Positions 4,605-46,457 of a stretch of DNA of 47,334 bases are shown here, piece by piece. A program made the position numbers and the translations under genes. The notes beneath the pieces were generated by a model. It was given only the letters and a program-made list of their open reading frames with translations. It ran no database searches and had not been told where the DNA came from. How positions within the stretch are numbered: position 1 is the stretch's first letter; every line of letters begins with the position of its first letter. This DNA comes from a virus. The stretch spans positions 1-47,334 of the IMG/VR virus record IMGVR_UViG_3300017971_000386; one strand, 5' to 3'.

Positions 4605-4737
4605 AAAACCCCCGCCATACCTCCCCCGTGTGGGTGTTGTCTTCTTTCGTGTGACCTATATTGTTTATTTATTTAAGAGAGTAGTTGCATGTAAGAAGGC
4701 AGTGTACACCATGGGGGGAGGTAGCTCGGGGGTATTT
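4605..4737. repeat. Inverted-repeat element, copy 1 (arms around an AT-rich core)
   Basis: This non-coding stretch has a left arm at 4605-4627 and a right arm at 4713-4737. The arms are near-complementary: ACCCCCG, then a three-base mismatch, then TACCTCCCCC. They enclose an 85-base core containing TTTCGTGTGACCTA, an AT-rich run and TAGTTGCATG. The same design, arms and core words recur at 39566-39698. The next gene starts 16 bases after the right arm. It may be an origin, an operator pair or a phage promoter region. Positions 4503-4604, before it, show nothing else. Confidence 0.65.
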
Positions 4738-4753
4738 GTGAAAGGAGAGAGCG

Positions 4754-5068
4754 ATGAGGAAGAAGTTGATTGCCCGACACAAGACAGAAGAGGAGATTGT
4801 GTTCGGGCTGCGGTACGACGAAGACAAGCAGGAGCTGTTCGTCGGAGGACCGGACACGATGCAGGCAGCAGTCACGGAAGCGATGCGTGAGTGCTTCGAG
4901 CTGATGACGGACTTCGCAGAGAACAACGCGTTCAAGAAAGGGCACCGGATGCGGCTGCTCTGGCGGGACGTCTCCGAGCGTCTGGAAGAAGGGCGTGCTC
5001 GGTCTCGCCAGAGAGTACAGGCTGCAGAAGGTGCGGTGCTTCAGACGGCTCACGTGGTGACCGGCTGA
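4754..5068 (+). CDS. Hypothetical protein downstream of the inverted-repeat element
   Basis: A 104-residue charged protein behind AAAGGAGAGAG. Residues 14-32 look like a beta-hairpin, followed by helices with an Arg-rich end. It stands alone between two non-coding stretches, with the inverted-repeat element directly upstream and a strong dyad directly downstream, so it may form its own transcription unit. No family recognised. Confidence 0.55.
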   Translation: MRKKLIARHKTEEEIVFGLRYDEDKQELFVGGPDTMQAAVTEAMRECFELMTDFAENNAFKKGHRMRLLWRDVSERLEEGRARSRQRVQAAEGAVLQTAHVVTG

Positions 5069-5090
5069 CCCTGTGCCAAGCACTCCCCAG

Positions 5091-5133
5091 AGGAGCGCCC
5101 CACAAGACGCCCACACGGGCGCGGGGCGCTCCT
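5091..5133 (+). terminator. Strong nested hairpin after the 4754 gene
   Basis: An 11-bp perfect stem (5091-5101 with 5123-5133) encloses a second 5-bp stem (5108-5112 with 5117-5121, loop ACAC). It lies 22 bases after the stop codon. There is no U-run, so it may be a terminator of a non-classical kind or an RNA-stabilising structure. Confidence 0.5.
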
Positions 5134-5341
5134 CCCCTCCTACCCTACCCGCCACCGGTCAAAGCGCCCCACAGGCGCCCCCTGTGCCCCCTACAGGCAC
5201 CCCTACCCTGACCCCCTACCCCCAGAAAAGCCAAAAAGCCCATAAAGCGCTCCTACGGGCGTTCGAGGAGCCTACCCTACCCGATACACGTCCAAAGAAT
5301 CAAAGACGCTCTACGGGGCTAAAAAGCACGTTCACGGACGT
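5106..5341 (+). repeat. Series of short hairpins with C/U-A-C loops
   Basis: At least six short dyads of similar design occur near 5107, 5164, 5184, 5246, 5304 and 5327. Each is a GC-rich 4-5 bp stem around a loop with CAC or UAC, for example GCGCC-CCACA-GGCGC at 5164-5178 and GTGCC-CCCTACA-GGCAC at 5184-5200. Several follow an AAAG or AAGA word. No gene is supported between 5069 and 5504; this array and the two dyads after it are what the stretch holds. Confidence 0.4.
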
Positions 5342-5343
5342 CT

Positions 5344-5419
5344 AAAACCCCCCTACAGACCCACATATGCGGATTTCACCCCAAAATCGCCCATAGAGGG
5401 GGTTGTATAGGGGGGTTTT
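5344..5419. repeat. Inverted repeat with AAAACCCCCC arms
   Basis: Twelve perfect base pairs join 5344-5355 (AAAACCCCCCTA) and 5408-5419, with weaker pairing continuing inwards. The loop is about 50 bases. The arm word resembles the arms of the elements at 4605 and 39566, but the core is different. It lies upstream of the ParB-terminase genes, where packaging or control sites are common. Confidence 0.45.
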
Positions 5420-5454
5420 CCCTCGCGCGCAAGTCCTTATAGGGCAAGCGGTTG

Positions 5455-14739: not shown

Positions 14740-15498
14740 ATGGGCAACCGACTAAGACTATCAAAGCTCTGGAGTCCAAGTGAGATCACCACTCTCGGAT
14801 GGTGGGATGCAGACGACGCAGGCACCATAACCGAATCGGGTGGTTTTGTCAGTCAGTGGGATGACAAGAGCGGCAACGATGATCACATGGTACAGGCAAC
14901 AGCAGCAGACCAACCGCAGACAGGGGTGCATACTCTTGGAGGATTGAATACTATCAGCGCATATGATCTGGCTACAGGCGGCACCTTTATGAACGCACCT
15001 GTTACCTGTGGAGCTGACTTTATGTTCTTCTGCGCGATGAACCTATATGATGGTGTATTTAGTCAAGGACCATTCCAGTTGCCTCAATCTTCTGGAACTG
15101 ATCGTTGGGGTTTGAGGTTCTACCGCAATAATAACCTCACGCTCACTGCGTATAGCAATGCAGGAGCAGATCTTGCACTGACAACAATAACCGGCACGGA
15201 CAATCCGATGATCTGGGGTGGTGTGTTTGATGGTACAGGCGCAGGAACCAAAGAGGTATTCATTGACGGTACTTCCGAAGGATCAAACGCTTACACAAGC
15301 ACAGACACAACTACAGTTCAGTTGTTCCGCAACGCAGACCAGACCGCTGATACTCGGATCGGTGAAGTTGTGATTGTGCCAACGGATGTAAGCACTGCGA
15401 CAAGGCAGAGGCTTGAAGGTTACTTGGCATGGAAGTGGGGTCTTGAAGGTTCACTCCCCCTCGGCCATCCTTACAAAAACGCAGCACCAACGGTATAG
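14740..15498 (+). CDS. LamG/concanavalin-like surface protein, paralogue 1
   Basis: A 252-residue protein. It opens with TLGWWDADDAGTITES and VSQWDDKSGNDDH, followed by alternating beta strands and VFIDGTSEG, the pattern of a LamG/concanavalin-like jelly roll. The end reads RLEGYLAWKWGLEGSLP, a terminal motif seen in phage and bacterial LamG-type proteins. It probably binds glycans as part of a fibre or head decoration. Its neighbour at 15508 is a paralogue, so the pair arose by tandem duplication. Ribosome site AAGGAGGAAG. Confidence 0.65.
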   Translation: MGNRLRLSKLWSPSEITTLGWWDADDAGTITESGGFVSQWDDKSGNDDHMVQATAADQPQTGVHTLGGLNTISAYDLATGGTFMNAPVTCGADFMFFCAMNLYDGVFSQGPFQLPQSSGTDRWGLRFYRNNNLTLTAYSNAGADLALTTITGTDNPMIWGGVFDGTGAGTKEVFIDGTSEGSNAYTSTDTTTVQLFRNADQTADTRIGEVVIVPTDVSTATRQRLEGYLAWKWGLEGSLPLGHPYKNAAPTV

Positions 15499-15507
15499 GA
15501 GAATCGA

Positions 15508-16293
15508 ATGCGATTAGAAATACCAACAGGCAAACGGTTCATTGTAGGAATGGGTGATTGGACTCCTGCTGAGATTACCGTTGAGACATGGTGGGATGCA
15601 AGCGACACCGATACCATCACCGACAGTGGTGGAGCAGTCTCCCAGTGGAATGATAAGAGCGGCAACAATAACCATCTGACCCAAGGCACCGCATCAGCAC
15701 AGCCGGTTACAGGAACGCGCACGATCAACGGCTTGAACGTCATCGACTGGGATGACAACTCGCCGCAGGACAGGATGCAGCTGACCAACGTGATAACAGA
15801 CGGCGCACCGTTCGCCGCGTTCGTCGTCGCGCAGTTCGACAACGTAAACTCCAACGCGATTGTTTATGATTCCACCAACAACAGATACACACAACTAGGA
15901 GAGGTCTCTGCTACCAACAACATCATCTTCCGGCTCGGCGCGGATGAAGGTGGTGGCATCAACTTCACTGGTGCGAACGGGTCGAGCATCGGCACGGATG
16001 TTGGCCTGATGGAGTTCTGGGTTGAGACTGGTGGTGCGGCATACGCGAGTATCAACGGTGCGTTGTCTGGCACCAGTGCCGGAACGTGGACGGCAACCGA
16101 CTACGAGATCAGCCGACTCGGACGCAACGGTTCCGACAGCATGGACGGCAGACTCGCAGAGGTCATCCTGATGGTAACGGAACCAAGCGAGGCAGACCGC
16201 CAGAAGATCGAAGGTTATCTAGCCCACAAGTGGGGATTCGCAGGGTCTCTGCCCGTTGGCCACCCTTACAAAAATACACCGCCCGTAGCATAG
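15508..16293 (+). CDS. LamG/concanavalin-like surface protein, paralogue 2
   Basis: A 261-residue paralogue of the preceding protein. Shared blocks are WWDASDTDTITDSGG, VSQWNDKSGNNNH and, at the end, KIEGYLAHKWGFAGSLP with GHPYKN. The middles differ, which suggests divergence of the binding face. Ribosome site TAGGAGAA. Likely a second carbohydrate-binding decoration or fibre component. Confidence 0.65.
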   Translation: MRLEIPTGKRFIVGMGDWTPAEITVETWWDASDTDTITDSGGAVSQWNDKSGNNNHLTQGTASAQPVTGTRTINGLNVIDWDDNSPQDRMQLTNVITDGAPFAAFVVAQFDNVNSNAIVYDSTNNRYTQLGEVSATNNIIFRLGADEGGGINFTGANGSSIGTDVGLMEFWVETGGAAYASINGALSGTSAGTWTATDYEISRLGRNGSDSMDGRLAEVILMVTEPSEADRQKIEGYLAHKWGFAGSLPVGHPYKNTPPVA

Positions 16294-23402: not shown

Positions 23403-23816
23403 ATGGGTTGGTACAAAGTAGTCGGAGACGAGTCGATCCAATACGTCGACGAGTCCGGCCAAGAACGGAGAGCCAACGTCGGAAGTATCGTGAACATCGA
23501 GGTCCGTACCCAAGCGAAGAGGTTGAAGAAGGCGGGCCAGATCGTTCCCCTTGAAAGCGCCGATGAAAACATCGGAGCTGATTTCGTACTTCGTGAAAAG
23601 CACACGGACCCCGCACCCGCGAAAGCGTTGAAGAGCAGCCAGAAAGAAACCGTCGATGCCGAGGATGGCGAAGACATTTCGATCGGTGCCCTTGTGCAGG
23701 TCGGTGAAGAAGTCGGCGAGATCGTCAAGGTGAACACGCGAACTGTCGATGTCCGGTTTGAAGAGGACGAAGAACCCAGACGATGCAAGCGTGAAGATGT
23801 GGAGGTGATCGGATGA
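23403..23816 (+). CDS. Hypothetical protein between capsid and glycosyltransferase genes
   Basis: A 137-residue product behind AAGGAGGAGAG. The N-terminal half is beta-rich; the C-terminal half (GALVQVGEEVGEIVKV, then VDVRFEEDEEPRRC) resembles a small SH3/KOW-like barrel. It is placed where head decoration or stabilising proteins are often coded. Overlaps the next gene by 4 bases. Confidence 0.55.
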   Translation: MGWYKVVGDESIQYVDESGQERRANVGSIVNIEVRTQAKRLKKAGQIVPLESADENIGADFVLREKHTDPAPAKALKSSQKETVDAEDGEDISIGALVQVGEEVGEIVKVNTRTVDVRFEEDEEPRRCKREDVEVIG

Positions 23817-25849
23817 CGATGTACAAGGTCCGAGTGCCGCACGTCTTTCGGGACGGACTAGGTAGACCGGACCCGAAGATGCCCGACGACGCGGTCGAGA
23901 TCTGCAATAAGCGGGTTGCCATGAAGCTGTTGCAGCAGGGCGTCATTGAGTCCGACGATCTACCTCCCAGAGGCATCCTTCCAGACCGAAGCCCGATCGA
24001 CCCGATCACACGGGTCGGTGTCTACATGCACACGTCGAGCTTCTACTCTGGCGGGAGGATCCACATACACCAGATGGCGTGGTGTATGGCGAACATGGGA
24101 GCCGAGGTTTTCATCGTGACCAATGCGCACCCGCGATGGTCGACGGATTACCGGAAGCACCCGAACCTCAAGATCCTGTCAGGTGCTGAAGCAGGCAAGG
24201 TGCCGAAAGACATCGACCTGCTCTTCAGTGACGGCAAGAACATGATGGGGAGGCAGGTGGTTCAGCGCAAGCTAGAGAACCTGAACATCCCTCTTGTGCT
24301 GATCAACTTCGAGACGCCAAACTGGGTTGCAGAGTTTGACCCTAACACGGCGTCGAGGATGGAGAACTTCGAGGACACCTTCAAGCACGCGGACATGATG
24401 CTGTGTAACAGCGAGGAGTCCCTGAAGTACCTGCACCAGTACATGCGAGTGACCGTGCCGACCGGAGTCGTACCGCCTGCAGCCAACACGCACGCGGTCG
24501 ACAAGAACGTCGCCAGTCCTCTACCCCCAGAAGCGCGGGGCGTCCCGTACGTTGTGTGGAGCGCACGCTCCTCCACGTACAAGGGCGGGCATGTGATCTG
24601 CGATGCAGTCATGAACTACCCGAAGCCTTTGAACCTTGTGCTGATCGGCAAGCCGAGCACGGTGCCGAAGAGTACCGAACTGCACAAGGTGTTCAGCTTC
24701 AAGGTCCCGATCACAGATGCGGAGAAGATGCGCGTCATGCGGGACGCTGTCTGCGTCGCTGCGCCGAGCAAGTTTGAAGGGTTCGGTATGGTGCCTGCAG
24801 AAGCCATGAGCAACGGCACACCTGTGCTCGCGTACGACCTGCCTGTACTGCGGCAAGGCTACGGCGATCGGATCCAGTACGCCGACTGGGGCGACGAGAA
24901 GCAGTTCGCCCAGAAGCTGTACGACATCGTCGACGGCAAGACCGTGGTGGAGGTGGACGCGGAAGAGGTGCGCCGTACCTATGGCATGGAGGCGATGGAG
25001 AAGGACATGGCTGAACGTGTGCCGTACTTCAATTTTAACCGGCGTCGTGTCAGCGCTCAGATGATCTGCTACTACGGACCGATGGTGCAAGAGGCAATCG
25101 CTTCAGTGTACCCGCACGTCGACGAGATCGTGATCGCGCACGGACCGACAGAGCTGTGGAAAGACTTCCCTGCGGACGACTCCCTGCAGCTGATCCAAAA
25201 CTATCCTGACCCAGAGGGCAAGATCAAGGTCGACGCCCGCAAGGTCTGGAAGAACAAAGGCGAGATGCGCACCGCCTGCCAGAGGATGGCGACCGGCAAC
25301 CATATCCTGATCGTCGATGCCGATGAGATCTATCACGGACTCGACGCATGGATCGAGCACGCGCCTTCGTTCGGCTGTCCTCGGTGGGTGCACTTCTGGC
25401 ACGACCTCGATCACTACGTTGTTGACCCCTCCGGTAACAAGAGGTGGGGTGCAGCGCACGAGCTAGGCGGCAGCGTACACAACCACCTGCGGTGGGCGTA
25501 CTGGCGGAACAGCAACCGGTGGAACGAGCGGGGCACAGCGGCGATGGGATCCGGCAACATGCGGATCAGCAGCGGCGTGGCTACAGCTCAAGCCGTCGAG
25601 GCTGTGCCACAGTGCTGTATCTATCACCTCGGCCACGTGCTCGACCCTGTCATGATGAAGGCGAAGCACGACTTCTACATCGCCAGAGACGGGGCAGGTG
25701 CAGGACGAGTACAGCGAGCAGCTGCGTGGAGCAACTGGAAGGGCGAGCTTGGCGACTGCGGTGACGGTCTGATCAGGCAGGTCTTCTGGGAGGTGCCCGA
25801 GTTGGTGCGCAGTGCATACGCACGGGTCGTGGAGGTAGCCGATGCCTGA
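23813..25849 (+). CDS. Two-domain glycosyltransferase (GT4-like then GT2-like)
   Basis: A 678-residue product. Residues about 65-400 form a GT-B glycosyltransferase: VGVYMHTSSFYSGGR, a sugar-nucleotide region with VVWSARSSTYKGG, and the E-x7-E motif E322...E330 in FEGFGMVPAEAM. Residues about 405-660 form a GT-A domain: RRVSAQMICYYG, VDEIVIAHGP and HILIVDADEIY with D502 and D504 as the DxD metal site. One chain could add two different sugars. It begins a four-gene modification island within the head genes, so a capsid or tail protein glycan is the likely product, with host surface sugars as the alternative. Confidence 0.85.
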   Translation: MTMYKVRVPHVFRDGLGRPDPKMPDDAVEICNKRVAMKLLQQGVIESDDLPPRGILPDRSPIDPITRVGVYMHTSSFYSGGRIHIHQMAWCMANMGAEVFIVTNAHPRWSTDYRKHPNLKILSGAEAGKVPKDIDLLFSDGKNMMGRQVVQRKLENLNIPLVLINFETPNWVAEFDPNTASRMENFEDTFKHADMMLCNSEESLKYLHQYMRVTVPTGVVPPAANTHAVDKNVASPLPPEARGVPYVVWSARSSTYKGGHVICDAVMNYPKPLNLVLIGKPSTVPKSTELHKVFSFKVPITDAEKMRVMRDAVCVAAPSKFEGFGMVPAEAMSNGTPVLAYDLPVLRQGYGDRIQYADWGDEKQFAQKLYDIVDGKTVVEVDAEEVRRTYGMEAMEKDMAERVPYFNFNRRRVSAQMICYYGPMVQEAIASVYPHVDEIVIAHGPTELWKDFPADDSLQLIQNYPDPEGKIKVDARKVWKNKGEMRTACQRMATGNHILIVDADEIYHGLDAWIEHAPSFGCPRWVHFWHDLDHYVVDPSGNKRWGAAHELGGSVHNHLRWAYWRNSNRWNERGTAAMGSGNMRISSGVATAQAVEAVPQCCIYHLGHVLDPVMMKAKHDFYIARDGAGAGRVQRAAAWSNWKGELGDCGDGLIRQVFWEVPELVRSAYARVVEVADA

Positions 25850-26468
25850 GACCCTCACCAAGCAAGAGAAGATGGAGCGGTGGATCGCGCGCCACATCAA
25901 GCGACCTCCGCTGACCATGTACGACATCGGCGTCGGTCCGAAGACAGAGGCGCAGACCTTGAAGAGGCTATACCCGAAGATGGAGGTCTATGGGTGCGAG
26001 CCTTTGTTGCATCTGTACCAAGGCATGGAGGAGAGCTTCTGTGGGCAGGTGATGCCGGTAGCTCTCGGACGGGAGACAGGACACACGACGATCCACTACA
26101 ACCCAGAGAGCCTGCTCGACGCGAGCGCTGTCCGGCACACCCTAGGGCAGACCGCAAGCAAGCGCGTCCCTGTGTGGACGCTCGACCAGTTCGATGAATG
26201 GTTCGGCAAGCCGAAGCGGGTCCTGCTGTGGATGGACATCGAAGGCATGGAGCTTGCAGCTTTGCAGGGTGGACACGGCCTGCTCGCCAGTCATCGTGTG
26301 CGGTGGATCAATCTGGAAGAGCGTCGCGCGGATCTGGAGGGATGGCCCAAGTCGGAAGACATCCGGCAGCTGCTTGCAAGCTACGGGTACATCCGCGTGC
26401 AAGAGTACAACAAACACCCGCTGCACCAAGACGTGGTGTACCGGTACAAAGGAGAAGACAGTGTCTAA
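25842..26468 (+). CDS. FkbM-family methyltransferase
   Basis: A 208-residue product overlapping the glycosyltransferase by 8 bases. TMYDIGVGPKTEAQTLKRLYP is the SAM-binding start, YGCEPL the strand 2 end, and WTLDQFDEWFG with LLWMDIEGMELAALQGG is the FkbM hallmark. FkbM enzymes O-methylate sugars or polyketides, and next to a glycosyltransferase sugar methylation is the natural reading. Soluble, no membrane segment. Confidence 0.85.
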   Translation: MPETLTKQEKMERWIARHIKRPPLTMYDIGVGPKTEAQTLKRLYPKMEVYGCEPLLHLYQGMEESFCGQVMPVALGRETGHTTIHYNPESLLDASAVRHTLGQTASKRVPVWTLDQFDEWFGKPKRVLLWMDIEGMELAALQGGHGLLASHRVRWINLEERRADLEGWPKSEDIRQLLASYGYIRVQEYNKHPLHQDVVYRYKGEDSV

Positions 26469-27033
26469 CATTCGGCAGCTGATCGAGTACGACCACCGCA
26501 ACCCGAAGGGCGCGGGAAGCAACATCGAAGAGAAGCTCTTTCTGTTCGGTCTGCTTCGCATGATCAAGCCGAGCCGTGTGTTGGAAATCGGAGTCAGTCG
26601 AGGACACATGACCGCGTGGCTTGCGCTTGCGTTGCACATGAACGGCAAGGGCGAGTTGGTCAGTGTGGACAATTTCAGTAAAGCGCACGGAGGACAGGCT
26701 GCTTCCTGCGAGCCTGCGCGTACGCGTGTGCGCGCGAACGGGATGCGCTCGCCGACCTTCGTGACGTCCGACTCCGTTGCATATCTCACAAGCCAGCCCG
26801 ACGACAGCTTCGACGTCGTGTGGGTGGATGGAGACCATAGCTATGATGGAGCGCGGGCAGATATTGTGGAGAGCCTTCGCGTGGCTAGTAAGGTGGTTTG
26901 CGTACATGACACAAGTCAACTGTACAGTGGCCCAAGGGATGCGATCGCGGATGTTCTGCGCGATCGCCAAGAAGATGGAAGTGGTTTTTGGGTTAAGGGA
27001 TGTCGAGGAATCTGGATAAGGAACGTGGACTGA
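26461..27033 (+). CDS. Class I SAM methyltransferase (Methyltransf_24-like)
   Basis: A 190-residue product from GTG 26461, which overlaps the FkbM stop and has AAAGGAGAAG upstream. SRVLEIGVSRGHMTAWLAL is motif I, ELVSVDNFS the ribose-binding strand, and DSFDVVWVDGDHSYDGARAD the DGDHSY motif of the Methyltransf_24 and cephalosporin-hydroxylase-like group. Commonly found in glycan clusters. It probably acts on the same glycan as its neighbours. Ends with a TGATG overlap. Confidence 0.75.
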   Translation: MSNIRQLIEYDHRNPKGAGSNIEEKLFLFGLLRMIKPSRVLEIGVSRGHMTAWLALALHMNGKGELVSVDNFSKAHGGQAASCEPARTRVRANGMRSPTFVTSDSVAYLTSQPDDSFDVVWVDGDHSYDGARADIVESLRVASKVVCVHDTSQLYSGPRDAIADVLRDRQEDGSGFWVKGCRGIWIRNVD

Positions 27034-27632
27034 TGCCGAAGAAAGCAAAGGTGTACGGGATTCAGCGCAGCGGCAACAACTGGTTACAGTGGATGCTCGC
27101 GGCAAACTACAAGGTGAAGATCATGGGCAGCAACTACGGGTGGACCCATGGACCCTACAGCACCGACAAGGAAGTGGCGGACGCTGTGAACTTCGTGACG
27201 AGCAAGCACCCGATCGAGTGGTTGCCCAGTATGCAGAGATTCCACAAGGTGCACCACGGTCTGACCATCGGACAGTTCATCCGGCGGTGCGACATGATCG
27301 AACGGTGGAACAGTCTGTACGCCGGACATCTTGCCAACGCCGAGAAGTTCGGCGCGCGGTTCGTTCGGTACGACGATCTGCTCCGCGACCCAGAAGCGGT
27401 GCTGTGCGGAATCGTCGACGGCGCATTCCCCAGAAAGCCGCAGCCCTTCCGCTCGGCAGAGAACCAACACATGAGCACCACCATGACCCCGACCAAGAAG
27501 CCATTCAATAAGCGGCAGTACTTGGAGAAGACCTACCTGAAGCGGTACACGCAAGCAGAGATTGATGAGGTGATCGCCCGCGTCGACTGGGGCGTGGCGA
27601 ATGACCTCGGCTATACGAAGGAGAACCTATGA
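27033..27632 (+). CDS. Sulfotransferase-like protein, first copy
   Basis: A 199-residue product. VYGIQRSGNNWLQWML at 7-22 matches the 5'-phosphosulfate loop of PAPS-dependent sulfotransferases (RSGTTWL). K58-H-P-x5-S66 matches the 3'-phosphate motif (R/K-x-P-x5-S) with Lys in place of Arg. ARFVRYDDLLRDPEAVL is the typical later strand and helix. It would move sulfate from PAPS to a sugar or protein; the APS kinase at 37453 could supply PAPS. Last gene of the modification island, overlapping the connector gene by 4 bases. Confidence 0.78.
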   Translation: MPKKAKVYGIQRSGNNWLQWMLAANYKVKIMGSNYGWTHGPYSTDKEVADAVNFVTSKHPIEWLPSMQRFHKVHHGLTIGQFIRRCDMIERWNSLYAGHLANAEKFGARFVRYDDLLRDPEAVLCGIVDGAFPRKPQPFRSAENQHMSTTMTPTKKPFNKRQYLEKTYLKRYTQAEIDEVIARVDWGVANDLGYTKENL

Positions 27633-33859: not shown

Positions 33860-34798
33860 ATGGCAATAACGCTCGAAGAAAGAATCACGTCCCGTGCGAC
33901 GACTGTCAACATCGACGGCGTGGGCATGAAGGAAATCTATCACGTGAAGGATGGAGGCAATGACCCGTACTCCATCCTTGGCGACCTGTCGGCAATCGGT
34001 TCGGCACATCCGACCGTCGCCTTCTCCACCTTGGAGTCGATCGGAGTGAAGCGCGTCGAGGCAGGCAGCGACCTGCTTGAGGTGACCTACAATTACACTC
34101 CCCCCAGTAAAGGCGACGGTGCCAATGCCAACGACGAGATCTGGGAGTGGGACCTGACCAGTCGGACCGCGCACATCGACAGTGTGGAGAACATAGAGAC
34201 CGCCCCGCCCGGCACCTTTGAACCGAATCAGCTGACCTATGACGCAGACAACGAGACCACCGCGAAGGCTGACCGCAAGCTGAACTTGATCGGGGTGGAT
34301 GGTGACAACGTCAAAGGCGTCGACGTGTACAGACCGACTGGGTCGCTGCGTGTGACCAAGACCTACAGCCCGATCACTGCGTTCGACTCTGCAGACCGTG
34401 CAGTCATTGCGGCTGCGCGCAACACCACCAACGACGACACGTTCGTCGACTGGACGGCGGGCGAGGTGCTTTTCCTCGGTGCGCGGATCCGGTACAGCAC
34501 GGTGAACAACAACGCACAGGTGACCTACAATTTCTTGTTCGGTGCAAGCCAGACCGACGTGAAGTTTGACGTGTGGAAGCTGACCGATCCGGTCGTGGAC
34601 GCCAGCACAGCAGAAGTGACCCTTGCAACGGTGCTCCCTTTCGAGTACATCTGGGGTGACCCAGTCAAGAAGAAAGTGCCTGTAAGCCTTGGCGATCCTG
34701 ACCTCGGCTTCAAGTGGGAGAAGCACTTCCAGACGATCAACCAAGCAACGGTCTATCAACCGAGCGACTTCGATCTGCTCGGACTTGTCGGACCGTAA
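33860..34798 (+). CDS. Distal tail/virion protein of unknown family
   Basis: A 312-residue product behind AAGGAGAG. Beta-rich with several short Trp-containing strands (EIWEWDLTSRTAHI, EYIWGDPVKKKVP). It takes the place where distal tail proteins are usually found, right after the tape measure, but shows no recognisable Dit motif. Probably a tail tip component. Confidence 0.6.
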   Translation: MAITLEERITSRATTVNIDGVGMKEIYHVKDGGNDPYSILGDLSAIGSAHPTVAFSTLESIGVKRVEAGSDLLEVTYNYTPPSKGDGANANDEIWEWDLTSRTAHIDSVENIETAPPGTFEPNQLTYDADNETTAKADRKLNLIGVDGDNVKGVDVYRPTGSLRVTKTYSPITAFDSADRAVIAAARNTTNDDTFVDWTAGEVLFLGARIRYSTVNNNAQVTYNFLFGASQTDVKFDVWKLTDPVVDASTAEVTLATVLPFEYIWGDPVKKKVPVSLGDPDLGFKWEKHFQTINQATVYQPSDFDLLGLVGP

Positions 34799-34808
34799 GG
34801 AGGCGAGT

Positions 34809-35585
34809 ATGCCGACACCTCTGCAAGATGTCAATGTGGGCGACCCTATTCTTGCCGACAACTACAACCGACTGCAGGGCGGAGTCAATGCTCTGCTCAG
34901 CGCATTCGGCAACATCGAGGTCGGACCGAATGGTGTGTCCGTGCCAAGTCAACTGGAGCGGTTCCCGATTGAGCTGCTTAGTACGAGAGTGGTGGCTACT
35001 GCAGACGACAGCGTCACTGCGTTCAAGGTAGGTGATGTGGTTGCCATCTTTGGCGGAGCGATGGATCCGACACTAGGTGGAGACGCGGACGAGGTCACGA
35101 CCAGTGCCGTCACGGTGGCAGAACCTGTGGACGCGGGACATTCTACTTACGGTGTAGTGTATGAGCCCATCGACGGAGACACTCCCGGCAAGGTGATCGT
35201 CGCGGGGTTCGCGTTTGCTCTCATCGTGCGACCCAGTACAGACGACGATGATGCACTACTGGCAACCCACAGTGTCATCCGTCCCGCTGTTTTCCCAGAG
35301 GACACGACCGATAGCATTCCGGCGACGAGGGGCGTGCTCACTTACGGGGTCGGGATCGGTGACGTCATATGGGAAGACACGTCTGTCACGCCGAACACGA
35401 ACTCGCACTGGGCTTTGATCAGACTCGCCGCTCGGATTACTGGCTGCACTTACGTCGAAGCAGTTGAGGATCAAACCGGACAAACTGGTGAAGTCAAGAT
35501 TCGATTCCTCAACACAGCGCACGAGAAAAAGGGAGAAGAGCTGACTCTGCCCTACTATGTGTCTGACTGCACTGGAGGAAGCTGA
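34809..35585 (+). CDS. Virion protein of the tail-tip region
   Basis: A 258-residue product from ATG 34809 behind AAGGAGGCG. DVNVGDPILADNYNRLQGGVNALL, near the N-terminus, is a short motif frequent at the start of phage tip or fibre proteins. The remainder is beta-rich and ends with SDCTGGS. Overlaps the first of the three paralogues by one base. Confidence 0.6.
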   Translation: MPTPLQDVNVGDPILADNYNRLQGGVNALLSAFGNIEVGPNGVSVPSQLERFPIELLSTRVVATADDSVTAFKVGDVVAIFGGAMDPTLGGDADEVTTSAVTVAEPVDAGHSTYGVVYEPIDGDTPGKVIVAGFAFALIVRPSTDDDDALLATHSVIRPAVFPEDTTDSIPATRGVLTYGVGIGDVIWEDTSVTPNTNSHWALIRLAARITGCTYVEAVEDQTGQTGEVKIRFLNTAHEKKGEELTLPYYVSDCTGGS

Positions 35586-36226
35586 TGGTAGCAGTTGGTG
35601 ACAGGGCTCCAGTCTTTGAAGCGATCGACGGTCCGATGGTCATGTTCCCTTGTGCAGGGGAACCAGCGCCAGTGAATCCCTGCGACCCCTCCCCAGAAAT
35701 TCTTCTCACCGTTACCGGTTCAAGTGGGACCGTGAATTGGTGCGGGCAGACTTGGACGCTTCCGGCGGATAGCGGCGTAGAGAAATCGGCTTGCCCAACG
35801 ACCTACACAACGCGACAATCAACGAACACTTCAATAGCAACAACTCTCCGCGCTTGGGTTGCTTCGAATACGTGGGCAGCAGGGACAAGCAACACCGTCC
35901 TCAACCTCGGTCGTCAGTACCGAATGCTAAGTTATTTAACCGGCGGAAGTCTCAAGAAGAGATCCTCACAGAACGACCTTTACATACGAGTTGGAACCGG
36001 AGCAGGCTTCGCTTTCAATCTTGTCTCCGCATATTTCTACCCCGCGAAGTCTACCGCTCGACCGGTAGTTGCGACCGGCTCGTATGTTTGGTCTTCAGCG
36101 ATTAACCTGTTGAACGGGATTTCAGATCAGGCAACATACAGCGATTATATAATTACAGACGCATGGTTCGGAAGTCACACAACAGGCGGCATCACTTACG
36201 CATGGGCGAAGGGGGCAGGATGGTAG
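35585..36226 (+). CDS. Tail-tip-region paralogue 1 of 3 (constant ends, variable centre)
   Basis: A 213-residue product. The first 70 residues (CAGEPAPVNPCDP, LLTVTGSSGTVNWCG, SGVEKSACP) and the last 20 (FGSHTTGG then AWAKGAGW) are shared with the next two genes; residues about 72-190 are not. Four Cys in the constant part are conserved. The pattern suits a display scaffold with a variable binding face, likely receptor recognition (inference). The stop overlaps the next ATG within GGATGGTAG. Confidence 0.65.
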   Translation: MVAVGDRAPVFEAIDGPMVMFPCAGEPAPVNPCDPSPEILLTVTGSSGTVNWCGQTWTLPADSGVEKSACPTTYTTRQSTNTSIATTLRAWVASNTWAAGTSNTVLNLGRQYRMLSYLTGGSLKKRSSQNDLYIRVGTGAGFAFNLVSAYFYPAKSTARPVVATGSYVWSSAINLLNGISDQATYSDYIITDAWFGSHTTGGITYAWAKGAGW

Positions 36227-36837
36227 CGAGCGGAGACCGAGCAGGTTTGGCTGAAGCGATCGATGGGCCGGTCGCGTTCTTTTTCTGCGCCAATGATCCT
36301 GCACCGGTCAACCCGTGTGGTCCAGATCCTGAAATGCTTTTAACGGTGACGGGTGCAAGTGGAACGGTCAACTGGTGTGGGCAAACGTGGAACCTTCCGG
36401 CAGATAGCGGGGTGGAGAAGAGCGCGTGTCCCGGTTCGCATGGCATTGTGCAAACGAGTGGCCTGACCCCGTACTCAACCTTCACTTATTGGTTAGCGCA
36501 TGAGACATGGAAGTACACCGCAGCAACGTCAACCAATCTTGTCTTGATAAACCAGTACAGGGTGGTCGGTTCGCTTGGAGGCACAAGCTATCTTTTATCA
36601 GGATGTACACAATCAATAGGGGTTCAAGGCACGCTATCAAATCAAGTCTTCCTTGGGTCTGGAAGCGCACGTCCAGTTGCCCCGCTCTTCACAAGCAGAA
36701 CGACCGGCATCAATCCTGTTTTACTTTCTGGACAAGCCGCGCCAACGTATAGCAACTACAAAATACCAGATGGGTTTTTCGGAAGTCACACAGCAGGCGG
36801 CATTACTTACACGTGGGCGAAAGGGGCAGGATGGTAG
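36220..36837 (+). CDS. Tail-tip-region paralogue 2 of 3
   Basis: A 205-residue product. Starts MVASGDRAG and shares LLTVTGASGTVNWCGQTW, SGVEKSACP and the C-terminal FFGSHTAGG...WAKGAGW with its neighbours. The centre (about residues 72-180) is unrelated by eye and more AT-rich. Same seven-base overlap with the following gene. No ribosome site other than GGGGCAGG, so translation probably depends on coupling. Confidence 0.65.
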   Translation: MVASGDRAGLAEAIDGPVAFFFCANDPAPVNPCGPDPEMLLTVTGASGTVNWCGQTWNLPADSGVEKSACPGSHGIVQTSGLTPYSTFTYWLAHETWKYTAATSTNLVLINQYRVVGSLGGTSYLLSGCTQSIGVQGTLSNQVFLGSGSARPVAPLFTSRTTGINPVLLSGQAAPTYSNYKIPDGFFGSHTAGGITYTWAKGAGW

Positions 36838-37442
36838 CGAGCGGCGATAGAGGTATCGTTATTGACGGGCCCGACGGACCGGTTGTGTTCTTCCCATGTG
36901 CAGGTGAACCTGCGCCGGTCAATCCATGCGACCCAGACGCAGAGATGCTTTTGACGGTAACGGGTGCAAGCGGAACCGTGAATTGGTGCGGAGAGACTTG
37001 GAATTTGCCAACCGATAGTGGTGTTCAGAAAAGTGTCTGTCCGACTTCCTACGGCAAAGGCCAGTACACGCAGGGGACCAGTCCATATACTTATTGGATA
37101 GCAAATCATATTTGGAACTATTTCGGTTCATCCGGTTTGATATTGTATCGTAATGCGGAGACACGGAAGGCTGGTGGAAGTTACGTCAGGACGGCAGGTA
37201 ACTATTTTGTAATCAGTCTTCGGGTAGTTGGAGCGTTGGACAAAGGTATTGCTCAAGCACTCACTCCTCAATCAACAAGACCCGTTGCAGCGACAACTGC
37301 TTTCCTTGGATACTCTACCATAGGATTGCTTACTTCCGGTGACGGTGCAGAGTGGACCGACTACCAGTTGACTAACAATTTCTTTGGGAGCTACACAACG
37401 GGCGGCATTACATACGCATGGGCGAAGGGACAAGGATGGTAA
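36831..37442 (+). CDS. Tail-tip-region paralogue 3 of 3
   Basis: A 203-residue product with the same constant ends (FPCAGEPAPVNPCDP, VTGASGTVNWCGETW, FFGSYTTGG, WAKGQGW) and a third, different centre. The cassette ends here: the stop is followed by AAGGAGGAGC and the APS kinase gene. One of the three may be the functional tip while the others are stored variants, or all may be assembled together. Confidence 0.65.
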   Translation: MVASGDRGIVIDGPDGPVVFFPCAGEPAPVNPCDPDAEMLLTVTGASGTVNWCGETWNLPTDSGVQKSVCPTSYGKGQYTQGTSPYTYWIANHIWNYFGSSGLILYRNAETRKAGGSYVRTAGNYFVISLRVVGALDKGIAQALTPQSTRPVAATTAFLGYSTIGLLTSGDGAEWTDYQLTNNFFGSYTTGGITYAWAKGQGW

Positions 37443-37452
37443 GGAGGAGCAC

Positions 37453-37986
37453 ATGAAAACGATTTGGCTGTTCGGCCCGAGCGGGGCAGGCAAGACAACC
37501 GTAGGCAACGAACTGGTCGAGAAGCTACGTGCGCGCGGGCGTGACGTGGTGATGATCGACGGTGACGAGCTTCGCCGAACGGTCTGCTTCGATCTCGGCT
37601 TCAGTTACGATGACCGGTTCAAGCAGACGACGCGAGCCGCGTACATGGCGAAGGCTGTGACTGCAGGCAACGCGTGGGCCATCGTCTGTCTGATCACTCC
37701 GTACAAGGAGTTCCGCGATGTCGCGACTCGGCTCTGTGGTCCAGAGCTTGTGTATCTGCAGAGCAATCAAGAGGAGCGCGTCCGACGAGATCCGAAAGGT
37801 CTCTATGCAAAAGCAATCGCCGGAGAGCTTGAAGCAAAGCTAACTGGCTACGACGGCGCGTTCGATGTGCCGGATGAGTCCGAGTGTATGACGGTCACCA
37901 CCGAAGACTATGCAGCGGCGACGGTGGCAGACATAATTTTGAGCCGAGTGATCGGCGAGAGCTTCACAAAAGGAGGAGGAATCTAA
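37453..37986 (+). CDS. cysC: Adenylylsulfate (APS) kinase
   Basis: A 177-residue enzyme that phosphorylates APS to PAPS. Walker A G8-P-S-G-A-G-K-T-T16; VMIDGDELRRTV is the APS-binding DGD motif; LGFSYDDRFKQTTRAAYMA is the family helix; RRDPKGLYAKAIAGE and LTGYDGAFDVP are the later signatures, all in normal order and close to the normal length. It is followed immediately by a sulfotransferase gene (TAATG overlap). APS itself must come from host ATP sulfurylase, which is not in the window. Confidence 0.92.
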   Translation: MKTIWLFGPSGAGKTTVGNELVEKLRARGRDVVMIDGDELRRTVCFDLGFSYDDRFKQTTRAAYMAKAVTAGNAWAIVCLITPYKEFRDVATRLCGPELVYLQSNQEERVRRDPKGLYAKAIAGELEAKLTGYDGAFDVPDESECMTVTTEDYAAATVADIILSRVIGESFTKGGGI

Positions 37987-39230
37987 TGATCGTGATCAGT
38001 GGGTGTCCGCGCAGTGGCACCAGTCTTATGATGGACATCATGCGGGAGACGTTCGGCGAGGGCAGGATCATCGGCGAGAAGTTCCCGCAGGAGAAGCGCA
38101 TCAAGCGCCAGACTGAAAGGCAGGAAGGCGAGACCGATCAGCAGTGGGCGGTGCGCGAGTACATCATGAACAAGGACGGCAGCAAGCAGAAAGCGCTCGC
38201 CGAGTTCGCCGAGACCAAGGACATGAACCCGAACGGGTTCTGGGAGTGCGGTTACACAGTGCGCGGGATTCAGTATGTCCGCCCAGAGAACGCGCCGAAG
38301 GCGACGGACATCTGCAAGGTCGTGTCGCAGGGTCTCGCCCAGAGCAACCCCCAGTACATCGACAAGGTCGTCTATATGCTCCGACACCCCAGAGCTGTGG
38401 CGAAGTCGCAGGAACGTCTGAAGGGGCGCTTCGGTGGACTGGACAACCCAGAGCGTGGAGGCAAGGAGGTGCGGGAGCACAGCCCGAAGATGTTCGTGCA
38501 GGTGACCAAGGCAGCAGCGTCGTGGCTTCGCGCGCACGCGCACGTGCCCGTGCTGCTCGTGGACTTCGACGACCTGATTGAAGACCCCGCCGCTCAGCTG
38601 CAACGCGTGCAGGACTTTCTGGGAGAGGGAGACTTCACCCAGTCAGTCAGCCGCATCGAGCCGAAGCTGCGCCGGTCGTATCCGCAGGAGGTGGAGCATC
38701 CGCTGTGGGGTCCGGCTGAAGCGCTGTACTCTGCGATGAGTTCGCTCGACTACGACGCGGTGGCCGACGTTGAGGTGCAGCGGGTGGAGCGAGAGAAGCG
38801 TCGTGTGTGCGTTCGACTCGGTCGTGCCGTCGTCGACAACGAGTGTGCTCTCTGCAGGGCCGATGCGAACACGCGGAGGAACTACGCGGTGCAGGCCACG
38901 AGGAGAGGGATCGCGTGGCAGTCTGAGCCGTGCGTGTACGAGTGCCTCGAAGAAGGCAAGACGATCGAGGAGAGCATCGCGAGCAATCACTGGGCGAACC
39001 TCGCCGCGCCGATCGGAGAGGAGTACTGGTGCCCGCGTGCCGGAGCCAAGGTGAACCCCAAGCACTGCGAAGCCTGCAGAGAGTATGACGTGTTCCGCGC
39101 ACAGCTCAAGCAGGCAGCGGAAGACAAGCTCATCGACTGGAGGAACGAGCCGTGTGTCTACGAAACAAGCGAAGGACCAGAGCCGCACGTGACCGAAGAG
39201 CAAAGCATAGCAAGCAACCACTGGCTGTGA
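37986..39230 (+). CDS. Sulfotransferase, second copy, with duplicated C-terminal domain
   Basis: A 414-residue product. ISGCPRSGTSLMMDIM at 4-19 is the 5'-phosphosulfate loop and VVYMLRHPRAVAKS has R133-H-P-x5-S141, the 3'-phosphate motif. VPVLLVDFDDLIEDPAAQ is the later conserved strand and helix. From about residue 275 follows a Cys-rich extension in which a unit occurs twice: EPCVYE...TIEESIASNHW, then EPCVYE...TEEQSIASNHWL, each near CxxC cysteines, perhaps zinc-binding. Uses PAPS, presumably made by the kinase next door. GTGA overlap with the next gene. Confidence 0.88.
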   Translation: MIVISGCPRSGTSLMMDIMRETFGEGRIIGEKFPQEKRIKRQTERQEGETDQQWAVREYIMNKDGSKQKALAEFAETKDMNPNGFWECGYTVRGIQYVRPENAPKATDICKVVSQGLAQSNPQYIDKVVYMLRHPRAVAKSQERLKGRFGGLDNPERGGKEVREHSPKMFVQVTKAAASWLRAHAHVPVLLVDFDDLIEDPAAQLQRVQDFLGEGDFTQSVSRIEPKLRRSYPQEVEHPLWGPAEALYSAMSSLDYDAVADVEVQRVEREKRRVCVRLGRAVVDNECALCRADANTRRNYAVQATRRGIAWQSEPCVYECLEEGKTIEESIASNHWANLAAPIGEEYWCPRAGAKVNPKHCEACREYDVFRAQLKQAAEDKLIDWRNEPCVYETSEGPEPHVTEEQSIASNHWL

Positions 39231-39865: not shown

Positions 39866-40450
39866 CTAGCCAACAAGACCTAGCCAAGCGACGACGCTTT
39901 CCGCAAGATGCCAGCGATCGCCTCAAGCGATCCGCGAGCCATCACCTGCCGGTACACGGCGCGGCCAAACACACGACACGATCGGTGAGGCCGAGACAGC
40001 CAGCCCGCACGACGACAAGCGCGCCCCGCAACTCACGGGGCAACCTGCGAAGAACCTCGGCCAAGGTCTCAAGGCGAAGACACCGCGTGAGGCGGGGGTT
40101 CACAACTCTGCCCAGTCACGTATCGGTCGGTCAGGCTTCACCGGGAGAAGCTACTCCGCCCAGCACGGCAACGCGTCCGGCTGGAGTACGGGGGGAGGTT
40201 GCACCGCATAGACCTCCGCGCAGAAAGCGGTGCCATTCAACATCGAGCGCGATGCAGTGCCAGAGCCGCCAACCTGCAAACCGTGGAGAGCCTAGCGCTC
40301 GCCAGATCCGCCGGAGGAGACAGCCGGTGACAAACCACGGTCCCTGCCCCACAAGCGAGACGGGAGTCGGTTGGTTCAATACATGGGCAACGAAGGTAAA
40401 GCTGCACCGCGTGGATGCTCGACTAGGATGGTGGGACACCCGAGAGGAAA
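39866..40450 (+). ncRNA. Possible large structured non-coding RNA
   Basis: About 585 bases without a convincing gene, between the boxA and the first leader element. Visible pairings: 39917-39922/39928-39933; GGCCGAG 39990-39996 with 40057-40063 enclosing the hairpin 40024-40029/40037-40042; an interleaved pair at 40195-40200/40213-40218 and 40202-40208/40228-40234, which would form a pseudoknot; and ACCGTGG 40281-40287 with 40336-40342. Stems of six or seven pairs are expected by chance in a stretch of this length, so this remains a candidate. An open frame from 39985 exists but is Arg/Ser/Pro-rich and has no ribosome site. Confidence 0.4.
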
Positions 40451-40451
40451 T

Positions 40452-40549
40452 CGAATACGCGACCGCGCTACAAAAGAGTGGGTCGCGTAAGCCGTGCCGT
40501 GGTGGGCACGACCTGACGAGACAGCTACTCTCGATCCAAGAGAAGGAGG
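40452..40549 (+). promoter_or_regulatory. Structured 5' leader element, copy A
   Basis: TCGAA is followed by stem 1 (40459-40465 with 40482-40488), then stem 2 CGTG/CACG (40494-40497, 40508-40511) around the constant loop CCGTGGTGGG, then CTGACGA (40514-40520) and the AAGGAGG ribosome site (40543-40549). It precedes the gene at 40555. Three further copies keep this order with different stem sequences. Confidence 0.65.
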
Positions 40550-40554
40550 ACTTT

Positions 40555-40746
40555 ATGTCTACATTCACAAAAGGCGCATACAAGGCACACATCGTTCGGG
40601 AAATCTACGCGGGTGCAACCAAGGTTGTCCGCAAGGTATCGAAGGATGGGATCACCAAGGCGGTCCTGCAAGAGGTCGTCGACACGTACGAGAACCTGAA
40701 GCTCAAGAAGGTGGGCAAGGGCGAGTACGCGATCCTCGTGTCCTAG
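40555..40746 (+). CDS. Small protein with KAHIVREI domain, behind leader A
   Basis: A 63-residue product. The whole protein aligns by eye with the end of the protein at 40848: KGAYKAHIVREIYAG versus KGALKAHVVRAIFAG, and VDTYENLKLKK versus VETYENLKIKK. A compact alpha/beta domain, basic. Unknown function; duplication of both the gene and its leader suggests regulatory or dosage importance. Confidence 0.6.
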   Translation: MSTFTKGAYKAHIVREIYAGATKVVRKVSKDGITKAVLQEVVDTYENLKLKKVGKGEYAILVS

Positions 40747-40754
40747 ACGCCAAG

Positions 40755-40842
40755 TCGAAACGCTCCGCCCATGTGCGGGGCGTACGTCCACCGTGGTGGG
40801 TGGGCGCTGACGAGACAGCCACTCGATGGAGAACGAAGGAGG
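40755..40842 (+). promoter_or_regulatory. Structured 5' leader element, copy B
   Basis: TCGAA, stem 1 of nine pairs (40760-40768 with 40775-40783), stem 2 CGTCCA/TGGGCG (40785-40790, 40801-40806) around the constant loop CCGTGGTGGG, CTGACGA (40807-40813), and AAGGAGG (40836-40842). Precedes the gene at 40848. Confidence 0.7.
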
Positions 40843-40847
40843 ACGTT

Positions 40848-41381
40848 ATGAGTAAGAGCAAGAAGAGCAAGACCGGTCTGCAGTACTTCGCAAAGGTCAA
40901 GGGTCAGCGCGGCTACCTCGCGTTCAACGTCGAGGAGTGCGAGACCTGTGGTGGGACGACGCAAGCGGCAAACGCCGTCAACCTCCACGAGACCGCCAAG
41001 AAGCTGCAGTCGTTGGGGATGACGAAGTGGGATGGCTCACTTCCCCCAGAAGCGTGGTACGACGATGAGTCGAACCAGTGCAAGTGTGAACTGTGTGACG
41101 TTGATGAACCCACAAAGGAGGAAACTATGACTACGACCAAAAAGACCAACAGCAAGAGCAAGAAGACCAGCAGCAAGAAGACCGCGAAGAGCAACCCCAA
41201 TTTCCACAAGGGCGCGCTCAAGGCCCACGTGGTTCGGGCTATCTTCGCCGGTGAAACCTCGATCGTTCGGGAAGTCGACGAAGACGGCGTGATCAAGACC
41301 GTCTTTGCCGAGCTTGTCGAAACCTACGAGAACCTGAAGATCAAGAAGGGCAAGAAGCAGTGGACCCTTCTGGTCGCGTAG
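40848..41381 (+). CDS. Cysteine-containing protein fused to a KAHVVRAI domain
   Basis: A 177-residue product. Residues 1-92 are basic then contain CETCGG and CKCELC, a possible zinc site. Residues 94-117 are a Lys/Ser/Thr linker, and the last 60 residues are a paralogue of the protein at 40555. Inside, ATG 41127 has its own AAAGGAGG, so the last 84 residues may also be made as a separate protein. This looks like two genes joined by loss of a stop codon. Confidence 0.6.
   Translation: MSKSKKSKTGLQYFAKVKGQRGYLAFNVEECETCGGTTQAANAVNLHETAKKLQSLGMTKWDGSLPPEAWYDDESNQCKCELCDVDEPTKEETMTTTKKTNSKSKKTSSKKTAKSNPNFHKGALKAHVVRAIFAGETSIVREVDEDGVIKTVFAELVETYENLKIKKGKKQWTLLVA
41127..41381 (+). CDS. Internal start product: KAHVVRAI-domain protein
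   Basis: ATG 41127 lies in frame within the preceding gene, 8 bases after AAAGGAGG. The product would be 84 residues: a Lys/Ser tail and the full domain also coded at 40555. The strong site argues that this form is made; the longer fusion may be made as well. Confidence 0.45.
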   Translation: MTTTKKTNSKSKKTSSKKTAKSNPNFHKGALKAHVVRAIFAGETSIVREVDEDGVIKTVFAELVETYENLKIKKGKKQWTLLVA

Positions 41382-44075: not shown

Positions 44076-44291
44076 ATGGCACGACGCCAAACGGAAGAGG
44101 TGAAGAAGTTCCTGCGGATCGGCAAGCGTCGACTGTATGAGGTGCGCGTGATGGGCGTGTTCGTCGGTCACCGTGAAGGCAGCGACGCCACGATCCGCAA
44201 GCAGGTGAAGGACACGTACAACACCAACGCGGTGCGCCTGAAGAAGGTGTGGGAAGTAGAAAGGAGAGGACGCGATGGAAGTGAAGATTAG
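44076..44291 (+). CDS. Hypothetical small basic protein
   Basis: Seventy-one residues behind AAGGAGGAGG. Arg/Lys-rich throughout with short strands (LYEVRVMGVFVGHREG). A nucleic-acid-binding role would suit the charge; no family recognised. Overlaps the next gene by 17 bases. Confidence 0.55.
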   Translation: MARRQTEEVKKFLRIGKRRLYEVRVMGVFVGHREGSDATIRKQVKDTYNTNAVRLKKVWEVERRGRDGSED

Positions 44292-44871
44292 CAAGATGAC
44301 CGGCAAGCTGTACGGGGTCGATGCAGTGAACACTAGCCCGCTCGACAATGGGTGGTGTCGGTCGATGGAGTTGGTGCCGGACGCCGACCACGTCTGCGTC
44401 GAGTGCTTCAGCTTCGCGATGCTGCGAGGCAGTCGCAAGAACTGCAGAGCATCGTGGGCGAAGAACGGCGAGGTGCTTAGCGAAGGACCGCTCAAGTTCG
44501 TGCCGTTCTTCCATACGTTCCTTGGTCGCTTCAATGGACACGGGGAACTGATCAACCGACAGCACGCGGCGAACCTGTGCACCATCGCCCGCCACAATCC
44601 GCAGACGCGATTCGCGCTGTGGACGAAGCGCGTGGATCTGGTCAAGCGGCTGCGTCGCCCGAAGAACATGTGGCTGATCTACAGCAACCCCAGAATCGAC
44701 GCGCCGATGGAGAAGCCGCCGCGCCCGTTCGACAAGGTGTTCAACGTCGTGCGGAGCGACGGCCCGTACGCGGACCGCATCAACTGCGGGCCGTGCAAGT
44801 GTGTGGAGTGTGAGCGTTGCTACTCTGAAGGGTGCGACGTTATTTTTGAAGCGCTGAAGAAGCGCAGCTAG
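44275..44871 (+). CDS. Gp88-like cysteine-rich phage protein
   Basis: A 198-residue product behind AAAGGAGAGG. The order KMTGKLYGVDAVNTSPLDNGWC, HVCVECFS, SRKNCRASW, HGELINRQHAANL, TRFALWTKR and INCGPCKCVECERCY is that of the phage family known as Gp88, which has a conserved Cys set that could hold a metal or an Fe-S cluster. It was described from mycobacteriophages but occurs widely. Function unknown. A radical SAM gene lies two genes downstream. Confidence 0.65.
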   Translation: MEVKISKMTGKLYGVDAVNTSPLDNGWCRSMELVPDADHVCVECFSFAMLRGSRKNCRASWAKNGEVLSEGPLKFVPFFHTFLGRFNGHGELINRQHAANLCTIARHNPQTRFALWTKRVDLVKRLRRPKNMWLIYSNPRIDAPMEKPPRPFDKVFNVVRSDGPYADRINCGPCKCVECERCYSEGCDVIFEALKKRS

Positions 44872-45662: not shown

Positions 45663-46457
45663 ATGAGTTTGATATATGAACCCCGTGGTAAGGCGAGGGA
45701 GTACAGCCCCCTCGCCTTGAACCTGTACACCGGATGCAAGCACGCGTGCCGGTACTGCTACGCGCCGAGCATCATGCGACAGAAGCTGCACGTGTGGGCG
45801 AAGAACATGAAGATCAGGGGCGGCGACGAGAAGTCGCTGCTCAATTCGCTCGACCGCGAGGCGGCACGCATGGCAGGCGACAAGCGTGACATCCTGCTGA
45901 GCTTCATGACTGACCCGTACTGTACCCCAGAAGCAGCAGCCACGACGCGAAAGGCGCTGACCATTCTGGAGGCGCACAAGCTGCGGGTGCAGGTGTTGAC
46001 CAAAGCACCGAGCAGGGCGAAGGCTGACTTCGACATCATCGCCCGCAACGGTTGGAAGATGGCGACGACGCTCGGCTTCTACAGCAAAGCGAAAGCGAAG
46101 CAGTGGGAGCCGTACGCGGACAGCCCGCTCGTGCGGATCAACGCGATGAAGGAAGCAGCATCGCAAGACATCTTCACGTGGGTGAGCGCGGAGCCCATCA
46201 TCTTTCCAGAGGAAGGGCTGAAAGCGATCAAGGCTCTGGCCGGATACATCGACCTGATCAAGATCGGCAAGCTCAACCATAACAAGGCGCTTGAGTCCCG
46301 CGTCGACTGGGGCAAGTTCCTCGGCGATGCGGAGGCGCTGCTGCACGGGACGTACACGCGGTGGTACGTCAAGAAGGATCTGGAGAAGCACCGCAACACA
46401 GACAAGCTCGATGGTCAGTTGACCTTCGAGGAGTTGGAGAAGTTCGGCAGCGTGTGA
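45663..46457 (+). CDS. Radical SAM protein, SPL-related
   Basis: A 264-residue product behind AAAGGAGC. The Fe-S motif is C25-x3-C29-x2-C32 in LYTGCKHACRYCYAP, with LSFMTDPYCTPEA and LRVQVLTKAPSRA typical of the spore-photoproduct-lyase-like radical SAM group. TWVSAEPIIFPEEGLKAI follows the barrel strands. The substrate is unknown: relatives in phages have been linked to nucleic-acid modification or repair, but nothing here decides it. Confidence 0.8.
   Translation: MSLIYEPRGKAREYSPLALNLYTGCKHACRYCYAPSIMRQKLHVWAKNMKIRGGDEKSLLNSLDREAARMAGDKRDILLSFMTDPYCTPEAAATTRKALTILEAHKLRVQVLTKAPSRAKADFDIIARNGWKMATTLGFYSKAKAKQWEPYADSPLVRINAMKEAASQDIFTWVSAEPIIFPEEGLKAIKALAGYIDLIKIGKLNHNKALESRVDWGKFLGDAEALLHGTYTRWYVKKDLEKHRNTDKLDGQLTFEELEKFGSV

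Follow-up and report, generated by a model that had tools for sequence, protein, structure and literature searches.

The described systems that come closest to the locus analysed here are: (i) the gp38 adhesins of T2/T6/S16-type phages, in which glycine-rich motifs frame hypervariable segments (PMC10844046; PMC6851490); (ii) the targets of diversity-generating retroelements, such as Mtd and the tentaclins (PMC10743442); (iii) the RaxST-RaxX pair of Xanthomonas, a tyrosine sulfation system in which the sulfotransferase acts on a small protein encoded by the adjacent gene (PMC6637879); and (iv) the sulfotransferases that depend on the sulfate donor PAPS, for instance heparan sulfate 3-O-sulfotransferase.

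The present locus lies in a stretch of DNA of 47,334 nucleotides from an uncultivated phage (IMG/VR record IMGVR_UViG_3300017971_000386, positions 1 to 47,334), called here the window, and holds three tandem genes, T1, T2 and T3. Their products resemble gp38 in that they have a conserved attachment part and conserved motifs which frame variable segments that recognise the host or, in the present case, may do so. But while gp38, encoded by one gene, has a polyglycine sandwich, the predicted domain of the T1 to T3 family is all-β, its variable centre is long and single, its copies can stand in tandem and a sulfotransferase is linked to it; no glycine-rich motifs occur in the alignments of the family, and no sequence link to gp38 was found. 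The domain would be alike in purpose to the retroelement targets, from which it differs in that no reverse transcriptase was found with it and in that its variation includes changes of length over approximately 100 residues. As for RaxST-RaxX, the neighbour of the sulfotransferase is here a phage tail-module domain, whose sulfation is hypothetical. Finally, the window enzyme matches PF00685 and PF13469, as PAPS-dependent sulfotransferases do, but its substrate cannot be read from sequence. The literature searches yielded no account of a phage tail-module domain that is variable and accompanied by a resident sulfotransferase.

In our reading, to which we give a probability of roughly 0.6, T1 to T3 are hypervariable recognition domains borne on the tail, which diversify without a reverse transcriptase.

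Layout and relatedness of the three tandem genes

In the window, the tape measure gene is followed by two more tail-module genes and then by T1 to T3. The features of this part are the following:

33860 to 34798, plus strand: tail-module protein further upstream of T1, 312 amino acids (aa), without Pfam or PHROG match
34809 to 35585, plus strand: tail-module protein directly before T1, 258 aa; the T1 start codon (ATG) overlaps the TGA that ends this gene
35585 to 36226, plus strand: T1, intact open reading frame (ORF) of 213 aa, profile E 3e-51; constant N-terminal part at residues 1-73, variable centre at residues 74-187 (window 35804-36145), constant C-terminal part at residues 188-213
36168 to 36235, plus strand: T1/T2 join, with the constant C-terminal end of T1, a ribosome-binding site, the ATGGTAG overlap and the start of T2
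36220 to 36837, plus strand: T2, intact ORF of 205 aa, profile E 2e-47; centre at 36439-36756
36779 to 36846, plus strand: T2/T3 join, laid out as the T1/T2 join
36831 to 37442, plus strand: T3, intact ORF of 203 aa, profile E 3e-50; centre at 37050-37361

The two genes that precede T1 are assigned to the tail module on the basis of position and of the 24-28% identity, in a weak alignment, between the 34809-35585 protein and the proteins at the same position in two related phage records, L005 and L007. The latter also has a protein of similar size at the position equivalent to that of the 33860-34798 gene.

An earlier note on this DNA had described three tandem paralogues which overlap by seven bases and have constant ends, with four constant Cys, and more AT-rich centres, and this description is borne out. 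The three ORFs are intact, and chance can be dismissed as the source of their similarity (blastp E 1e-57 to 1e-61). The overlap ATGGTAG is present at both joins, where the last Trp codon and the stop codon (TGG TAG) form, in another frame, the start of the next gene (ATG GTA G), and a purine-rich ribosome-binding site sits within the conserved last codons; the end of T3 resembles the other joins less and lacks the overlap. About 73 N-terminal and 26 C-terminal aa are conserved among the three proteins, with identities between copies of 74-77% over residues 1-73 and of 65-77% over residues 188-213. Cys 23, 33, 53 and 70 are common to all three, and T2 has a fifth one, Cys129. The GC content of the centres is 0.48-0.51, against 0.55-0.59 in the N-terminal part, and only 1.7% of the 330-nt stretches of the window have a GC content below 0.50.

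The centres had also been taken as unrelated to each other, which does not hold: they are homologous, with 25-27% identity in global alignments that were compared with 300 shuffles, none of them as good (Z 5.5-7.3), and with 25-30% identity in a part-wise comparison of the copies. They differ throughout by insertions and deletions, and a near-identical repeat of any of them is absent between 35000 and 38000. Nearly identical DNA is found at the joins only (62 of 68 nt), while the constant N-terminal DNA is 64-70% identical. In this constant part, residues common to two copies use the same codon in 16 of 53, 20 of 51 and 17 of 51 cases (expected: 21.7, 20.6 and 20.9). Since the constant N-terminal DNA is synonymously at chance level, it is kept by protein selection and not by recent copying; in consequence, any exchange there within the window phage is old or rare.

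Other duplications were observed in the window. A second tandem paralogue pair (14740-15498 and 15508-16293; 39% identical) matches a PHROG virion structural protein family and forms a small duplicated surface-protein set. Two neighbouring ORFs at 39985-41381 share a C-terminal stretch of 61 aa (56% identical), which is a separate small duplication. Near the right end of the record are encoded a GP88-like protein (44275-44871) and a radical SAM protein (45663-46457).

A phage domain family with conserved ends and a variable centre

T1 to T3 are members of a large phage domain family, in which the domain is free-standing or fused to fibre-like proteins or to a tail terminator. By the sequence searches made, the family is undescribed, without Pfam, PHROG or PDB match: none of 26 members matches PHROGs or Pfam at E 0.01, PDB sequences give no match to the members at E 1, and T1, T2 and T3 singly match neither Pfam nor PHROGs. 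Single-protein scans of viral contigs with T1 to T3 returned one relative at most, and the members were reached by means of (i) an alignment of the constant ends; and (ii) the neighbouring sulfotransferase, used as bait. The constant-end alignment found L004, L005, L007, L008 and L009, all of which keep the ends and have a different centre. A domain-trimmed iterative profile, started from nine seeds and run on 4,609 six-frame ORFs of the relatives' records, converged at 28 ORFs, located in 17 of the 26 phages that carry the sulfotransferase and in L004, L008 and L009. When whole records were searched with the final alignment, the domain was supported in 15 sulfotransferase phages, versus the 17 of the ORF run; the match in L039 is weak and is lost with another profile. 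The domain-trimmed run replaced a first iterative HMM, whose later rounds drifted into long proteins.

The first iteration found the non-seed L028, L041, L043 and L044 at E 5e-20 to 4e-41, and reversed ORFs gave no match to the domain profile. When the family was divided in two and a profile was built from each half independently, these two matched in a profile-profile comparison (97.6%, E 3e-12, 62 N-terminal columns). Scored with the profile of 26 members, to whose seeds they belong, T1 to T3 reach E 2e-47 to 3e-51, and they carry both the N-terminal signature of the family (G-x-T-W ... G-x-x-K-x-x-C-P) and the C-terminal one (G-[IV]-T-[YVI]-x-W). Neither the domain nor a sulfotransferase relative was found in genome contigs or in cultured phages, and plasmids yielded only chance matches.

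The records hold from one to six domain copies: one each in L004, L007, L008 and L009, two each in L005 and L028, and four each in L033 and L042. Copy number and centres differ in every relative found, and none of these relatives repeats the three centres of the window, in searches that may have left out its nearest relatives. The two tandem copies of L005 overlap by GTGA, unlike the ATGGTAG of the window. Both copies of L028 (a 202-kb record) begin with the leader SSQPLYEFASTVATLCG and finish with SW[AS]QGNGW but differ in the rest, which is, as far as the sequences tell, the same design as in the window. Other arrangements were also seen: in the first copy of L005 (5800-6612), the N-terminal leader contains an internal repeat (DKLWPEDHPG... 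/ DVLWPDDHPG...); L042 encodes at 3593-5434 two domain copies in one polypeptide of 614 aa, with more copies in neighbouring ORFs; and L022 (a 476-kb record) has six scattered copies, some of them clustered near 204-206 kb and 371-373 kb.

The AF2 model with the best scores, built from 26 sequences, is that of a relative of T1 to T3, the L044 domain (pLDDT 89.4; pTM 0.85), and it is all-β, with twelve strands and no long helix. The conserved ends correspond in this model to the first four and the last two strands (entropy 0.6-1.3 bits) and the variable part to the six central strands (1.9-2.4 bits); that is, in the predicted fold, conserved strands frame a variable Tyr-rich β-meander. The branch lengths of the centres are about ten times those of the ends, in trees of low support that were used for branch lengths only. 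Tyr amounts to 6.5% of the centres, versus 2.8% in the other proteins of the window, and is likewise enriched relative to the other ORFs of the same loci (p=2e-9); Cys is almost absent. Variable surfaces rich in Tyr and Ser are common in recognition sites. A fold search of PDB and BFVD with the L044 model gave no clear match (best scores: Foldseek E 0.45; VIA-align Z 5.3 over 59 residues), an absence that does not amount to a new fold and speaks neither for nor against a lectin fold. The fold search with a first AF2 model, of T1 from nine sequences (pLDDT 57), was discarded.

Regarding the place of the domain in the particle, in L009 it is the C-terminal part of a protein in which a Ser-Pro linker connects it to a tail terminator (Pfam PF12691, Phage_tail_terminator_6; 26.6 bits versus a cut-off of 23.8). 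In L043 and L044 it terminates a fibre-like protein of 840-858 aa, a fusion that hints at a gp38-like tip adhesin, and in other records it is preceded by Ser- or Thr-rich linkers. These fusions, together with the location after the tape measure and tail genes, support a display of the domain on the virion or tail. From display, variability and composition we infer receptor binding by the domain, and the case is limited to these three because the fold has no clear structural match.

The one instance of centre replacement observed is the sister pair L043 and L044, whose long proteins are 58% identical. Their DNA is 85.6% identical over the 188 nt before the centre (constant N-terminal part), unalignable over the approximately 280 nt of the centre (residues 13-48% identical) and again 89.6% identical over 3 kb from about the stop codon onward. 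One centre is wholly different despite the close flanks. The same codon is used in 35 of 42 cases in the constant N-terminal part versus 29 of 56 just upstream (p=0.0013), a pattern that favours an exchange via framework DNA over fast divergence. A scan for further sisters returned only L043 and L044; among the near-identical pairs L009/L010 and L045/L048, there are no differences within the L009 domain.

This pair bears directly on the strongest competing explanation, namely, an ordinary old tandem duplication, in which the ends serve as a framework for assembly or attachment and the centres drift under relaxed constraint or mildly diversify, with neither exchange nor a dedicated recognition role. 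The synonymous saturation of the constant N-terminal part of T1 to T3 and the fact that the centres are diverged homologues are what such a duplication predicts, and the identity of the joins can in part be due to constraint, as the ribosome-binding site and start codon of the following gene are embedded in the last codons. But it does not account for a centre replaced between flanks of approximately 86-90% identity, for a centre that retains its β-meander and its enrichment in Tyr, or for a copy number that varies widely across phages. We consider it unlikely.

Sulfotransferase and APS kinase beside the domain

Two genes of sulfate metabolism directly follow T3:

37453 to 37986, plus strand: APS kinase, 177 aa; Pfam PF01583 E 6e-34, above the cut-off
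37986 to 39230, plus strand: phage-specific sulfotransferase, 414 aa; PF13469 E 5e-11, PF00685 E 1e-9

Judging by its family, the APS kinase would have PAPS as its product. The sulfotransferase is above the cut-off for PF13469 (43.7 bits versus 27) and also for PF00685, and a P-loop-type motif, PRSGTS, appears as CPRSGTSL in all three closest members; solved structures are linked to it by sequence only marginally (E 0.06). A Cys-rich C-terminal module is present twice in the window enzyme, with the second match at 39024-39230.

The sulfotransferase served as bait because it lies with the APS kinase directly after T3 and is also present in L005 and L007. The search yielded 26 distinct phage records (the window included), all of them viral contigs. 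No relatives were found among 84,980 prokaryote species genomes or in 50,697 phage records, and 2.9 million contigs gave about 30 with the enzyme. In approximately 15 of the 26 phages, a domain ORF ends 0-142 nt upstream of the sulfotransferase or lies one gene away from it, and three of the six phages found via the domain alone carry the sulfotransferase next door. L005 has two domain copies followed by the sulfotransferase and the APS kinase, and L007 one copy and the sulfotransferase. The APS kinase is located beside the sulfotransferase in L005, L021 and L042, in the last case between the domain copies and the sulfotransferase.

Such a sulfotransferase is not present in the records of L004, L008 and L009 and, hence, sulfation cannot be essential to the domain. 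That the APS kinase and the sulfotransferase make PAPS and sulfate the domain or a partner is a tentative proposal, possible but with the balance against it. Alternatively, the sulfotransferase may alter host or virion glycans, given that a glycosyltransferase and methyltransferases are likewise encoded by the phage. Between the capsid and connector genes, the window encodes at 23813-27632 a glycosyltransferase, a FkbM methyltransferase, a second methyltransferase and a weak second sulfotransferase, a set which suggests modification of the virion or host surface.

These enzymes bring in another explanation, according to which T1 to T3 are a virion decoration and not receptor binders: enzymes that add sugar and sulfate would dock on them or have them as substrate, and the decoration would be of use against host defence, in matrix adhesion or for altering the host surface. 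Modification alone leaves the rapid replacement of centres between fixed ends unexplained, and three domain-bearing records have no sulfotransferase; even with the sulfotransferase and APS kinase adjoining T3, and with the glycosyltransferase and methyltransferases at 23813-27033, we find this explanation improbable.

Possible exchange at the joins and diversification of the centres

The earlier note proposed that the cassettes exchange their centres by recombination at the repeats. The joins show modest signs of this: the two copies that agree with each other are not the same in the N-terminal part (18/31/28) as in the C-terminal part (15/6/4; chi-square p=0.003), and the 3' ends of T1 and T2 use the same codon in 13 of 18 cases, versus 8.6 expected (p=0.03). 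Site patterns and codon use are modest evidence that points to an old crossover at the joins, weakened by the translation signals that lie within them; no recent recombination within the phage was detected.

The same two results and the identity of 62 of 68 nt at both joins could also be expected from a silent cassette store, in which the tail displays a single expressed copy, while the remaining two act as donors of centres through recombination between repeats. Yet all three copies are complete genes with start codons, ribosome-binding sites and coupling by stop-start overlap, near-identical DNA is absent outside the joins, and neither a serine recombinase, nor a tyrosine integrase, nor a reverse transcriptase was found in the window record, all of which makes the silent store quite improbable. 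As regards the idea of a diversity store without a reverse transcriptase, the lack of the enzyme is upheld (RVT_1 is absent from the window and from six related records, which may be incomplete, in a search that gave matches in control genomes) and the silence of the store is not, since all copies are intact coupled genes. A diversity-generating retroelement with its reverse transcriptase outside the possibly incomplete record would suit a Tyr-rich variable region in a tail-module gene, but it can practically be set aside, as the whole centre varies with insertions and deletions and not at scattered adenine-coded sites, and no RVT_1 occurs in the window or the six related records.

In the preferred reading, that of hypervariable recognition domains, all three tandem genes would be expressed, each as a copy of a binding domain displayed on the tail, and the central sheet of this domain would face outward and recognise host receptors. 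The three copies would give the window phage several specificities or a mixed oligomeric tip. New centres would originate from rapid divergence and occasional homologous exchange via the conserved framework DNA, and PAPS from the APS kinase may feed a sulfotransferase that acts on the domain or a partner. As a complete package, a sulfated repertoire free of reverse transcriptase, with a tandem Tyr-rich tail domain, framework exchange and a dedicated sulfotransferase fed by the APS kinase, is rather unlikely to hold.

The locus addresses the open question of how the surface with which a phage recognises its host can go on changing when no retroelement is present. It offers (i) an apparently undescribed domain family, present in records of up to 476 kb and with a clean constant/variable architecture; and (ii) a sister pair with centre replacement, together with a recurrent enzyme neighbour that suggests the sulfation of a virion protein.
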